Shown here in pieces: positions 7,907-54,184 of a DNA stretch of 64,000 nucleotides (within the stretch, counting starts at the first letter, position 1; every line of letters begins with the position of its first letter). The position numbers were made by a program, and so were the translations under genes. This stretch comes from Thermosynechococcus sp. HN-54 (lineage in GTDB: Bacteria > Cyanobacteriota > Cyanobacteriia > Thermosynechococcales > Thermosynechococcaceae), in NCBI RefSeq assembly GCF_023650955.1, contig NZ_CP098039.1, positions 124,001-188,000 on the forward strand, given 5' to 3'. The notes under the pieces are model-generated. The model saw only the letters and a program-made list of their open reading frames with translations. It was not told the origin of the DNA and made no database searches.

Positions 7907-8737
7907 ATGCCTGTTTCAGCGTATTCCAGCCTCAGGGCTGATCAGTTTCGTCATCCCCGCGATCGCGAGGCCACGCAAGCGCTACAACAAGTGCCGGGCT
8001 TGGATATTCTGGTGCGAACGCTCTTAGGCTCGGTGGCGGAGCAGGCGTTTTATCTTGAAAACATTGGCAGTAGCCTTCGCCTGAGTGAGCAGCAACTGCC
8101 GGAGATTTATGCCCTGCATATGGAGGCTTGCCGTATTTTAGGCTTAGAGCCACCCCAACTGTATCTTAAACAACACCCAGTTCCCAATGCCTATACCTTT
8201 GCCATGCGGGGTAAGCAGCCCTTTGTGGTCTTGCACTCTTCGCTGGTGGAACTGCTGACGCCAAAGGAATTGCAGGCGGTGCTGGCGCATGAGTTGGGAC
8301 ACCTGAAGTGCGAACATGGGGTGTATCTGACGATCGCCAACCTACTGCTGTTTGCCACCAGTCAACTCTCCCCTTGGGGCTTGCTCTTGGCGCAAGGACT
8401 ACAAACCCAATTGATGCATTGGCTGCGCTGTGCTGAACTGACCTGCGATCGCGCTGCCTTGTTGGTGACCCAAGACCCGCGTACTGTGGCCTCGGTGCTA
8501 ATGAAACTCTGTGGTGGCTCCCCCCAGTGGAGCGATCGCCTGAATCTCGACGCCTTCATTGCCCAAGCCCGCGACTATGAGGCCGCTGATCGGGGTTGGT
8601 ATTACCTCTTCAAGGAATTGCAAGCCAGTCAACTCACCCACCCACTGCCAGTTCTGCGGGCACGGGAAATTCTGGATTGGGCGGAAACCCAGCAGTACGA
8701 TTACCTCGTCAAGCAATTACACTCCGCTCGTGAATAA
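7907..8737 (+). CDS. M48 family zinc metalloprotease
   Basis: A 276-residue protease of the M48 (HtpX/Ste24-like) family. The zinc motif HELGH is at residues 128-132, and the third ligand is probably E177 in ELTCDRA, which matches the family's ExxxD motif. A hydrophobic stretch right after HELGH (residues 140-165) suggests membrane association. It is shorter than HtpX and lacks that protein's N-terminal two-helix anchor. The substrate is unknown; family members degrade misfolded membrane or periplasmic proteins. The cytochrome gene follows two bases later, so the two are probably co-transcribed. Confidence 0.85.
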   Translation: MPVSAYSSLRADQFRHPRDREATQALQQVPGLDILVRTLLGSVAEQAFYLENIGSSLRLSEQQLPEIYALHMEACRILGLEPPQLYLKQHPVPNAYTFAMRGKQPFVVLHSSLVELLTPKELQAVLAHELGHLKCEHGVYLTIANLLLFATSQLSPWGLLLAQGLQTQLMHWLRCAELTCDRAALLVTQDPRTVASVLMKLCGGSPQWSDRLNLDAFIAQARDYEAADRGWYYLFKELQASQLTHPLPVLRAREILDWAETQQYDYLVKQLHSARE

Positions 8738-50914: not shown

Positions 50915-50938
50915 GTTGAGGACTTGGGGGCATCTGTA

Positions 50939-51316
50939 ATGACGGCATTGAACGTGTTGGGAACACCCTTGGTGTGCTGCTGTCAAAATCCACTCACAGG
51001 ATTCTATCGCGATGGTTTTTGTCGAACAGGGGCAGGGGATGTGGGTGCCCATGTGGTTTGCGCCGAAATGACCGCCGAATTTCTCACCTTTACCCGCTCG
51101 CGGGGCAATGATCTTTCCACTCCGGTACCTGCCTACCAATTTCCCGGTCTGAAACCGGGCGATCGCTGGTGTCTGTGTGCCTCCCGTTGGCGTGAAGCCC
51201 TAGAGGCTGGCGTAGCACCACCCGTCATTCTAGAGGCGACCCATGTCAGTGCCCTTGAGTACGTCTCTCTAGAGGATTTGAAAGCCCACGCCCTTGGTGG
51301 TCGCCAGCAACCGTGA
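50939..51316 (+). CDS. DUF2237 family protein
   Basis: A 125-residue soluble protein with the conserved core NVLGTPLVCCCQNPLTGFYRDG, a VCAEMTAEFLTFTRSRGNDLSTP middle and GDRWCLCASRWREALEAG, which together define DUF2237. Function is unknown. Four or more cysteines are conserved in such proteins, perhaps for metal or disulfide, but no classical site can be named. The chosen start is ATG 50939 (MTALNVLG). An M48-like gene follows 18 bases later. Confidence 0.82.
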   Translation: MTALNVLGTPLVCCCQNPLTGFYRDGFCRTGAGDVGAHVVCAEMTAEFLTFTRSRGNDLSTPVPAYQFPGLKPGDRWCLCASRWREALEAGVAPPVILEATHVSALEYVSLEDLKAHALGGRQQP

Positions 51317-51334
51317 TCGGGGAAATACTGAGGT

Positions 51335-53404
51335 ATGCCCGACCCAGCAGCGGATTTTCGCCTAGATCCTCGCTATGTTGCCGGTTTAGCGGCCTTCAAC
51401 CGCGGCGATTATCAACTGGCGATCGCTGCCTTCAAAGCCGTGATTGCCACCCATGGTCAACGCCGTGAAGGTCTCAAGGCTCACCTACACCTGATTAAAG
51501 CCTATGCCCACACCCACCAGTGGCAAGAGGCCATTGATCTGTGTCAACTCCTAGCGCGATCGCCCCTCCCCCCCATTCAGGCTTGGGCACAAAAGCATCT
51601 ACCAGAGTTAGAACGCTGCTTGGATGAGGAACCCACCTCCCCCCATCTTGAGTTTGTCCCAACGCCTAGTTCAAGACCGCCTATTCAACTGCGGCGAGTG
51701 CCTCGCCTCTATCTATGGCTGAGTCAGGGGGCAACGCTGCTGCTAATCGCTTGGCTGCTCCAAAAACCGCTACAGGGACTGATCGCCAGTCTCCTTAGCT
51801 ACCCCAATGATCAACTAATGCTCCTGCGGGGTTGGGAAGGGGTAATAGCGTGGTTTCTGCTGGGCTGCTTGGGGGTGGGGCTACTCAGTGGTGGCAGTTG
51901 GTTCTGGTCGTGGCGATTGCGAACCTGCTATGGCCTGCGTCCCGTCAGTCTTGGAGAGTTAGAGGAGTACAGCCCCGAAACAGTAACATTGTTGGGACGC
52001 TTACAGTGGTCGTGGTGGCAACCCCGTCCTCAAGTAGGCTGTCTGGTGACGGCAGCACCAATCATTTTTAGCTATGGACGCTGGCAACCCCGAATTATTG
52101 TCAGTGAAGGCCTATTGCGATCGCTCTCTAGCGAGGAACTGTTGGCCTTAATGGCCAGTGAGATTGCCCAAGTGCGATTGGGGCTGAATACCCTAGTAAC
52201 CCCCTTGGTTCTGCTGTTGCAACTGCCCTATGACCTCTACTGTTGGTGTAGCCGTTGGGGCGATCGCCTTGCACCGCCTTACGGCAAGGATTGGGGCGCG
52301 TGGTTTGTCAAAGGTGTAGCCTATCTCCTCTGTGCCCTCGTTAGTCAAAGCAGCTACCTCCTCTTTCGCGGCCTAGAAATGCTCTGTTTCTCGAGCAATC
52401 AACTGCGCCAGTCCTATAGCGATCGCCACGGCGCTGCCCTGATCAGTAATCCCAATACCCTTGTGATGGCTTGGTTTCGCCTCATGGAAGCCACAGCAAC
52501 GACGGCGCGTGCCCAAGGGGAAATTGGTGCTCCCCTAGAGTCCTTGCGTCTCCTTCTCCCTCTCAACCCCACCCAAGCCGCCCTTTGGGGCGATCAACCC
52601 CTCGATTGGCCAACGCTGATCCGCTGGGATACCGCCCATCCACTGCGGTATTGGTTTCGCCTGACCTCCTCCCATCGTCCCCTTGGACTGCGCCTGCAAG
52701 CCCTCATGACCGATGCCCGTCAATGGGGACTGCGCCCCCTCCTCTCACTGCCTACCCTTTCCTCCCCTCGCTGTCAACGGGCTGGGCAACAACTGGCACC
52801 CTTCTGGGGAGCGATCGCGGGAGTCATCATGACGATTATCCTCACGAGCATTGGTCAATTTGCGCTGCGGGCGGGGACGATCGCATCTCCCCTTTGGTGG
52901 TTAGCAGATGGGTCAACCTTGGTGCGCAGCTTCATTTCCATTGGCATTGGTTTAGGTCTATTTCTGCGGTTCAATGCCTACTACCCACCCCGGCAACCCC
53001 AAACCTACACCCTTGGTCAACTCCTCTATCATCCTTTAGCTTTGCCCCTCGATAGTACCGTCGTTAAGCTAGAGGGGGTTTTGTGTGCCGCTAAAGGACT
53101 GCGCAATGGCTTAGGACAGCACCTCTGGCTCGATACAAAAGCGGGTCTGTTTCCGCTGCGCTGCTACAGAAGTTGGGGATCGATTTGGCCACTGCTTGAG
53201 CCAGCCTATCTCAAAAACTTAGGGGGGCGATCGCTGGTCATCCACGGTTGGTTTCGACGGGGTACGGTGCCCTTTGTTGAAGTGAAGGAGTGGCACACCC
53301 TCGACCAACAGCACCAACGATCCTGGGCAGCCCCCTATTGGGCGATCGCCATTGCCACGCTCTGGATCCTCTACGGCATCATGACACTATTGGGTTGGCT
53401 CTGA
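51335..53404 (+). CDS. TPR and M48-like membrane protein with degenerate zinc site
   Basis: A 689-residue protein. Residues 15-95 form two TPR-like helical repeats. Membrane helices follow at about 128-150 and 170-190, then an M48-type domain (200-470), two further helices (about 495-540) and a C-terminal soluble part, ending with a helix at 665-688. Where M48 has HExxH it reads SEIAQ (275-279), and the usual third-ligand E of SRxxEYxAD is absent (QLRQSYSDRHGA), so proteolysis is unlikely. It may be a scaffold or a pseudoprotease regulator. The Cas4-like nuclease gene starts three bases later. Confidence 0.75.
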   Translation: MPDPAADFRLDPRYVAGLAAFNRGDYQLAIAAFKAVIATHGQRREGLKAHLHLIKAYAHTHQWQEAIDLCQLLARSPLPPIQAWAQKHLPELERCLDEEPTSPHLEFVPTPSSRPPIQLRRVPRLYLWLSQGATLLLIAWLLQKPLQGLIASLLSYPNDQLMLLRGWEGVIAWFLLGCLGVGLLSGGSWFWSWRLRTCYGLRPVSLGELEEYSPETVTLLGRLQWSWWQPRPQVGCLVTAAPIIFSYGRWQPRIIVSEGLLRSLSSEELLALMASEIAQVRLGLNTLVTPLVLLLQLPYDLYCWCSRWGDRLAPPYGKDWGAWFVKGVAYLLCALVSQSSYLLFRGLEMLCFSSNQLRQSYSDRHGAALISNPNTLVMAWFRLMEATATTARAQGEIGAPLESLRLLLPLNPTQAALWGDQPLDWPTLIRWDTAHPLRYWFRLTSSHRPLGLRLQALMTDARQWGLRPLLSLPTLSSPRCQRAGQQLAPFWGAIAGVIMTIILTSIGQFALRAGTIASPLWWLADGSTLVRSFISIGIGLGLFLRFNAYYPPRQPQTYTLGQLLYHPLALPLDSTVVKLEGVLCAAKGLRNGLGQHLWLDTKAGLFPLRCYRSWGSIWPLLEPAYLKNLGGRSLVIHGWFRRGTVPFVEVKEWHTLDQQHQRSWAAPYWAIAIATLWILYGIMTLLGWL

Positions 53405-53407
53405 ACG

Positions 53408-54184
53408 ATGCAACTTTCCCAAGCCCACTTGCGCACCCTCCAAACCTGCCCACGGCAATATCAATACCGCTATCTCGATAGCTTAATCCTGCCAGACGCC
53501 ACGCAGTTGACAGAGACGACAGCCCAAAAGCGCGGTCGCGATTTCCACCGCTTAATGCAGCAGCACTTCCAAGGACTGGATATTTCCCCGATTCTTGAGG
53601 CGCAGCCCAAATTGCAACCGTGGTTCGAGGCCTTTCAAACCATGCCACCGCCGATGATTGAGGGCCAAGGGGAAGCAGAGCATGTCCGCAGTCTGGGTTG
53701 GCAGGAGTTCACCCTTGTCGGCGTTTACGACTACATCATTTTTGGCCAAGGGCAAGCCCAAATTCTTGACTGGAAAACCTATGCCCACCCCCCCGCCCCA
53801 GAAACATTCACCCGCCATTGGCAAACTCGCCTTTACTGTTATCTCCTAGCAGCCACCAGTCGCTACTCCCCCAGCCAGATTTCTATGACCTATTGGTTTG
53901 CCCAAGGAGAGAAGGGTGCCAATGCCTACACATTTACCTACAGTGAGGCTATCCACCAGCAAATCCACCAGACTTTAGAGCAGTCCCTCACCCAACTGCG
54001 CCAATGGCTGCAAGCCTATGCACAAGGGCAAAACCTCCCTCAAGTTCCCGAAGCCCAGAGGTCGAAATACTGCTATGAGTGCGCCTTTTGTGAACGGTGC
54101 CAACGGTGTGAGCCAAGTGCAAGTGCTGTCTCGACCCTTGATCCGTTTCTAGCCATGTTCAAAGACTTGGGTATAACCCGCTAA
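53408..54184 (+). CDS. PD-(D/E)XK nuclease family protein with C-terminal cysteine cluster (Cas4/RecB-like)
   Basis: A 258-residue nuclease-fold protein. An N-terminal CPRQYQYRYL segment with a cysteine near 17, then GRDFHRLMQQHFQG, then the motif EFTLVGVYDYIIF...QILDWKT (about 100-123), where the D and the DWK form the PD-(D/E)XK site. The C-terminal region has CYECAFCERCQRC. One early cysteine plus the late cluster is the iron-sulfur arrangement of Cas4 and AddB. No cas genes are nearby. The last 36 bases overlap the RNase D gene on the other strand. Confidence 0.82.
   Translation: MQLSQAHLRTLQTCPRQYQYRYLDSLILPDATQLTETTAQKRGRDFHRLMQQHFQGLDISPILEAQPKLQPWFEAFQTMPPPMIEGQGEAEHVRSLGWQEFTLVGVYDYIIFGQGQAQILDWKTYAHPPAPETFTRHWQTRLYCYLLAATSRYSPSQISMTYWFAQGEKGANAYTFTYSEAIHQQIHQTLEQSLTQLRQWLQAYAQGQNLPQVPEAQRSKYCYECAFCERCQRCEPSASAVSTLDPFLAMFKDLGITR

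Follow-up and report, generated by a model that had tools for sequence, protein, structure and literature searches.

A predicted membrane pseudoprotease of the M48 fold in cyanobacteria and its possible role as a scaffold

The window, the whole 64,000-nucleotide stretch of Thermosynechococcus sp. HN-54 DNA that was analyzed, encodes a protein with the build of an M48 zinc protease in which the residues expected to hold the zinc are replaced. A first-pass annotation had described a TPR-M48 fusion that lost both zinc histidines and the third-ligand glutamate, and had proposed a pseudoprotease scaffold. The protein belongs to a family that we call P1, and its gene has the following features (coordinates of the window, residues of the protein).

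51335..53404, + strand: coding sequence of the pseudo-M48 protein (P1 family), start codon ATG, product of 689 amino acids
51368..51625, + strand: N-terminal TPR domain, residues 12-97 (TPR_16 match below cut-off; AF2 helices; VIA-align rows)
51704..51931, + strand: long helix pair, 124-154 and 168-199, probably membrane-spanning (AF2 model; hydropathy peak at 169-187)
51929..52744, + strand: predicted pseudoprotease domain of M48 fold, residues ~199-470 (AF2 model; Peptidase_M48 matches of relatives; Foldseek)
52157..52171, + strand: SEIAQ (275-279) where HExxH is expected, Glu276 kept (alignment)
52187..52384, + strand: helices 285-311 and 320-350, probably a membrane hairpin (AF2 model)
52406..52426, + strand: RQSYSDR (358-364), with the Glu ligand changed to Q359, Asp363 kept and His changed to Arg364 (alignment)
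52673..52693, + strand: remnant of the HPX4R plug motif, H447...R453, Pro changed to Arg (alignment; motif according to PMC7950410)
52796..52981, + strand: helices 488-512 and 526-549, probably membrane-spanning (AF2 model; hydropathy)
53000..53320, + strand: C-terminal OB-fold domain, residues ~556-662, with a conserved GWFRRG motif (model and fold matches)
53336..53398, + strand: final helix, 668-688, probably membrane-spanning (AF2 model; hydropathy)

The AF2 model of the 689-residue protein, built with 61 aligned sequences, had a mean pLDDT of 86.8 and a pTM of 0.78. It contained five TPR-like helices at residues 12-97, an M48-like core that itself includes two long helices (285-311 and 320-350), and a strand-rich C-terminal domain at 575-662. 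The annotation had placed TPR repeats in front of the protease part, in agreement with these helices and with a TPR_16 match at residues 14-75 (7e-06), which lies under Pfam's cut-off. Comparison of the whole model by VIA-align returned TPR structures in all rows (Z of about 11 to 13.5); because these occupied every match shown, the lack of M48 structures among them is no evidence against an M48 fold. Four or more membrane helices had also been claimed, and we found four stretches above the Kyte-Doolittle cut and seven long helices of membrane-fitting length in the model.

The window's own protein gave no match to Peptidase_M48 (PF01435) at E<=1 and matched NCBIfam HtpX weakly (6.7e-07), far under the cut-off. 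It is the exception among the 61 members of alignment A6, 60 of which match PF01435, the best at 3e-19. Foldseek searches with the whole model placed the protease ZMPSTE24 first among solved structures (2ypt, E 5.3e-3, probability 1.00), with an HtpX domain (3cqb, E 0.15, probability 1.00) and a Zn-peptidase (3c37, probability 0.99) in lower rows; neither the whole model nor the C-terminal domain yielded a Foldseek match with E<=0.001. The relatives' PF01435 matches and the likeness to 2ypt and 3cqb together place the protein in M48 by fold and homology, and the annotation was right that the fold remains.

The annotation had mentioned neither the C-terminal domain nor the gene linkage described further below. 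Folded alone, this domain gave a middling model (pLDDT 71.2), for which the 50 Foldseek rows shown had probabilities of 0.99-1.00 and a best E of 2.5e-3. Most of these were tRNA synthetases, RPA, SSB and CST proteins, which we take to be OB-fold proteins. VIA-align ranked at the top RPA (8aas, Z 8.7 over 84 residues, rmsd 2.9) and asparaginyl-tRNA synthetase (3m4q, Z 8.5 over 91 residues, rmsd 3.3). A Z near 8 is modest, a common fold shows no function, and OB folds also bind other ligands.

At the place of the zinc site, SEIAQ stands at residues 275-279 where HExxH is expected, as annotated. The segment RQSYSDR at 358-364 aligns with REY(F/Y)ADH of active relatives, and the third ligand, glutamate in those proteins, is therefore Q359 here. 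The remaining histidines within residues 199-470 are H365, H435 and H447, of which alignment A2 (11 sequences) shows H447 alone to be invariant. Cysteines in the same region occur at 236, 303, 305, 333 and 351; within the window's clade (its genus plus two sister genera), 10/12 sequences retain C236 and C333, and 6 to 8 of the 12 retain C303, C305 and C351. This conservation argues that no invariant His/Cys site has replaced the lost one, although a lineage-specific site could exist. BepA of Escherichia coli has an HPX4R plug motif and four metal-binding residues, according to the portion of PMC7950410 consulted. H447 and R453 of this motif are kept in the window's protein, and its proline is arginine in 12/12 of the window's clade and retained in 85/102 other P1 sequences. 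Glu276, Asp363, Arg364, His447 and Arg453 are each present in all 12 members of the clade. We considered the kept glutamate of HExxH as a sign of remaining catalysis and rejected the idea, as H447 is the only metal-binding residue left beside it in this clade.

We then placed these changes in a tree of 172 domain sequences. The window's protein fell within clade P1 (114 sequences, support 1.0, branch 0.55), apart from an active group of 38 sequences (support 0.88). A sequence was assigned to P1 if profile A4 scored it higher than A3 did. The 44 sequences of the active set were chosen by their own motifs, which makes their site states circular; without recourse to motifs, the 38 leaves that score over 610 bits with A3 fall into a single group (0.88), and every frame of at least 602 bits has HExxH. 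The overlapping pieces L041 and L027, frames shorter than 350 aa or below 180 bits, and the pieces L191, L011, L080, L217, L209 and L208 were left out of the 172 leaves.

All three zinc ligands together occur in no P1 sequence (0/114). The Glu ligand is missing from 114/114 and the first His from 112/114, with no gaps at those columns; the orthologue alignment that the annotation had proposed thus shows the loss to be general. Asp363 and the plug Arg453 are kept in 114/114, Arg364 in 106/114, and the glutamate of HExxH in 92/114 (80/102 outside the window's clade and 12/12 inside). The annotated loss of both histidines holds for the window's genus and its two sister genera (12/12) but not for the rest of P1, where the Glu ligand is lost in 102/102 and the first His in 100/102 while the second His is kept in 75/102 and the plug His in 89/102. 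The Glu ligand and the first His were therefore lost early, and the second His in the lineage of the window and in some others.

A further set of named loci, the best 80 of 306 relatives, comes from Nostoc, Microcoleus, Trichodesmium, Okeania, Moorena and others; these loci were chosen as nearest to alignment A5, so that the set leans to the relatives of that alignment. Here the first His occurred in 0/79, the Glu of HExxH in 70/79, the second His in 77/79, the Glu ligand in 0/80, Asp363 in 80/80 and Arg364 in 79/80.

Orthologues with an intact HExxH had been named as evidence that would count against the pseudoprotease reading. They exist in form only: the motif occurs in 0/12 sequences of the window's clade and 2/114 of P1, as HE(I/V)GH, and both of the latter lack the Glu ligand. 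These two, L134 (L134b) and L143 from genomes G126 and G164, form a pair (support 1.0) nested inside P1, in which the motif was either kept or regained. Orthologues have thus lost the catalytic residues but retain the fold and the gene, which identifies a pseudoprotease insofar as activity can be predicted from sequence. On these residue patterns, the P1 protein is almost certainly not a zinc protease.

The relatives found across the class led us to reject the view of the window's protein as an isolated oddity. Class-wide searches with score cuts found P1 in at least 203 of 388 Cyanobacteriia genomes, about half of those sampled. By score, an active TPR-M48 sister was present in 91 of the 388, both proteins in 41, P1 without the active sister in 162, and the active sister alone in 50. 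The genome counts used cuts of E<=2.4e-180 for A3 and E<1e-125 for A4 and were transcribed by hand from match tables; they include 8 genomes added to P1 as their fetched frames score as P1, and a divergent active relative under the A3 cut would escape them. Among 146 genomes sampled from the phylum, only 3 outside the class gave matches, at no more than 79 bits and in frames of 302 to 336 aa.

The active sister (e.g., L014-L021) offers the closest comparison. Its TPR, membrane helices, M48 part and GWFRR C-terminal part align with P1 over the full length, and because it has the same architecture, TPR and OB parts do not set the dead form apart. It differs from P1 in its intact HELGH and REY(F/Y)ADH motifs, its separate 38-leaf group (0.88) and its other neighbors. 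This shared architecture suggests an alternative in which P1 would serve as decoy, partner or adaptor in the regulation of an active protease (the TPR-M48 sister, an HtpX-like M48 or FtsH). Such a role is consistent with the 41 genomes that hold both proteins by score, with genome G141, where P1 and the active sister share a strand and their matched parts are about 540 bp apart, with the intact HtpX-like M48 in the window's genome, and with the precedent of inactive plant FtsHi proteins (PMC8197885, as far as the part consulted goes). It is weakened by the 162/388 genomes that carry P1 without the active sister by those score cuts, by the single TPR-M48 match in the window's genome, and by G141 being the only adjacent pair noticed. 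We regard regulation of an active protease as credible but unlikely; P1 as a partner of the TPR-M48 sister only was rejected on the count of 162. The arrangement in G141 (L136, contig C372) is compatible with an old tandem duplication. The HtpX-like M48 of the window, at 7907-8737, was correctly annotated as intact at 7907: it has 276 aa, AHELGH and a PF01435 match of 4.7e-19, and is of a different kind from P1.

A gene that has lost its catalytic residues may also simply be decaying, and we examined its state in the window's genus. All 11 same-genus genomes, the window's included, have matches, and 9/11 copies are full-length and open. The other two carry frameshifts, one on a single contig (G019, L010/L027) and one in a fragmented assembly (G024, L011/L026). 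These broken copies, the loss of both histidines and the lack of prfC or Rbp3-type neighbors would fit a functionless gene. Against this stand the nine open copies, the retention of Glu276, Asp363, Arg364, His447 and Arg453 in 12/12, and a median dN/dS of 0.19 over 28 pairs of the 8 full-length same-genus copies (TPR part 0.10, linker 0.27, M48 part 0.18, C-terminal domain 0.23). At the level of codons, the P1 gene in the window's genus is under purifying selection, and decay is a quite improbable explanation. The loss of the site is old and the gene selected, and P1 very likely has a selected role that is not proteolytic.

It is barely credible that P1 is still a metalloenzyme, using another metal or binding it through other residues. 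The candidates would be the second His (kept in 75 of 102 sequences outside the window's clade), the Glu of HExxH (80 of 102), the plug His (89 of 102) and cysteines (C236 and C333, in 10/12 within the clade). But 12/12 of that clade have lost the second His, so that Glu276 and H447 are what remains; the Glu ligand is missing from 114/114, and Arg replaces the His after Asp363 in 106/114.

Pseudoproteases are a known kind of protein, and P1 resembles several characterized systems in part. HtpX and Ste24/ZMPSTE24 share with it the M48 fold and membrane helices (Foldseek 2ypt and 3cqb), but they keep their zinc ligands, and NCBIfam HtpX models match the P1 protein far under cut-off. To our knowledge, neither has TPR or OB parts. 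BepA, a periplasmic and active Zn-peptidase in the part of PMC8423444 consulted, combines M48 with TPR, and its HPX4R plug is partly kept in P1 (PMC7950410, same limit). BepA has the protease part first, then TPR; the window's protein has the TPR part (12-97) before the M48 part (~199-470), together with membrane helices and a lost zinc site, and does not follow the BepA order. The FtsHi pseudoproteases of Arabidopsis and bacterial pseudo-orthocaspases are likewise inactive protease relatives in photosynthetic lineages, going by the parts of PMC8197885 and PMC6426788 consulted, but belong to unrelated protease families. We found no description of a TPR/OB M48 pseudoprotease family of cyanobacteria in literature titles and abstract openings, with subscription papers outside the coverage. 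An M48 protein of Nostoc flagelliforme named htpX could not be assigned to the P1 family from the consulted part of PMC8973743. As P1 members match PF01435 though the zinc site is gone, a peptidase label on them would probably mislead. The family represents a protease fold apparently retained for something besides cutting, for which the active sister serves as a comparison.

The genes around P1 give a lead on what that may be, although not in the window itself, where the adjoining genes lie outside the conserved linkage described below.

50924..51316, + strand: DUF2237 gene directly upstream of P1 (PF09996, 1.1e-57)
53408..54184, + strand: PDDEXK_1 nuclease-family gene directly downstream of P1 (PF12705, 1.7e-31)

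The three genes from 50924 to 54184 lie close together on one strand and may form an operon. Across 80 P1 loci (the window's and 79 others that were fetched; the upstream flank suffices in 75, the downstream flank in 77), prfC, encoding RF3, is found upstream in the same orientation in 40, directly adjoining in 36, and an Rbp3-type RRM gene, also on that strand, follows some hundred bases downstream in 41. Both are present in 23 loci, either in 58 and neither in 22, and each linkage spans 12 families as counted from genome handles. In two loci checked for each, prfC scored 825 and 813 bits against an NCBIfam cut-off of 467 to 473, and the RRM gene matched RRM_1 above the Pfam cut-off. All 41 downstream RRM proteins contain PDPRWA, a motif characteristic of class II Rbps, Rbp3 among them, according to the part of PMC9333190 consulted. 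The named loci (best 80 of 306; flanks complete enough in 69 and 70), which overlap the fetched ones in genomes and are not independent, have the RRM gene downstream in 49, prfC upstream in 22 and both in 11, with PDPRWA in 48/49 of these RRM genes. Nostoc linckia and Nostoc foliaceum have both genes at the P1 locus.

Neither prfC nor an RRM gene was found within flanks of about 4 kb at 20 active-sister loci, whose commonest neighbor reaches 8/20 and lies on the opposite strand; P1 loci in 16 of these 20 control genomes, those fetched with flanks, had the RRM gene in 11 and prfC in 11. Neither gene was found within 1.5 kb of 70 active, degenerate or partial loci. The RRM genes do not need P1, since rbp3-like genes occurred in 24/24 genomes searched, most of these without P1, and prfC was not found within about 1.5 kb of 25 RRM-gene matches. 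The linkage is absent in the window's genus: in the window's genome P1 lies at 175 kb, far from the Rbp3-type gene at 749 kb and from prfC at 1,590 kb, and the P1 loci of genomes G016, G018 and G026 have neither neighbor. In the portion of PMC11500504 consulted, Rbp3-type proteins of Synechocystis and Anabaena are tied to photosynthetic mRNAs and thylakoid biogenesis, and an Anabaena rbpG mutant has less of photosynthetic mRNAs, disturbed thylakoids and slower photosystem II repair, with an unchanged mRNA distribution. For the question of how cyanobacteria make their membrane proteins, the RF3 and Rbp3-type linkage offers a concrete lead that can be tested.

We propose for the window's protein a scaffold or holding role, as an M48-fold pseudoprotease anchored in the membrane; to this reading as a whole we give a probability of roughly 0.5. 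Without catalysis, the M48 cleft would serve as a binding surface. Glu276, Asp363 and Arg364 may form a salt-bridge network at the former zinc place; the change of His to Arg beside a conserved Asp suggests that Arg364 stands in place of the metal. The TPR and OB domains would lie on the cleft side of the membrane, in the cytosol, and recruit partners, which would make P1 a scaffold for membrane proteins or membrane-bound complexes, or a factor that holds them. The scaffold named by the annotation thus stays an inference, and a scaffold or holdase is the role that we somewhat favor. Most speculatively, P1 in cyanobacteria at large may act where membrane proteins get translated, as suggested by the prfC/Rbp3-type linkage and the OB fold; a role near translation is tentative and on balance doubtful. 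A specific form of it seems improbable: here P1 would be a membrane receptor for translation, its OB and TPR parts binding factors associated with the ribosome or mRNA (RF3, Rbp3/RbpG) and its empty cleft holding nascent membrane proteins, and the synthesis and insertion of photosynthetic proteins would thereby be directed to the correct membrane. A fixed, essential role is made less likely by the two broken copies, by the 22/80 loci that have neither neighbor and by the lack of linkage in the window's genus.

Outside the motif-bearing active group, a further degenerate TPR-M48 set of 14 sequences (L089, L090, L092, L093, L095-L098, L100, L101 and L104-L107) carries AYQLGR, AQALGR, AHQLGQ and the like. 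It is found mainly in other families, and some members sit in genomes that also hold the active sister. Its placement depends on the root, which is uncertain: the set mostly joins P1 or marks separate losses. A root on active-like sequences (e.g., L102) gives degenerate groups of 124 (0.999), 3 and a singleton, and a midpoint root gives five groups. One of the 44 active-set sequences, L094 of genome G304, has HELAQ, with only the second His lost and the Glu ligand kept.
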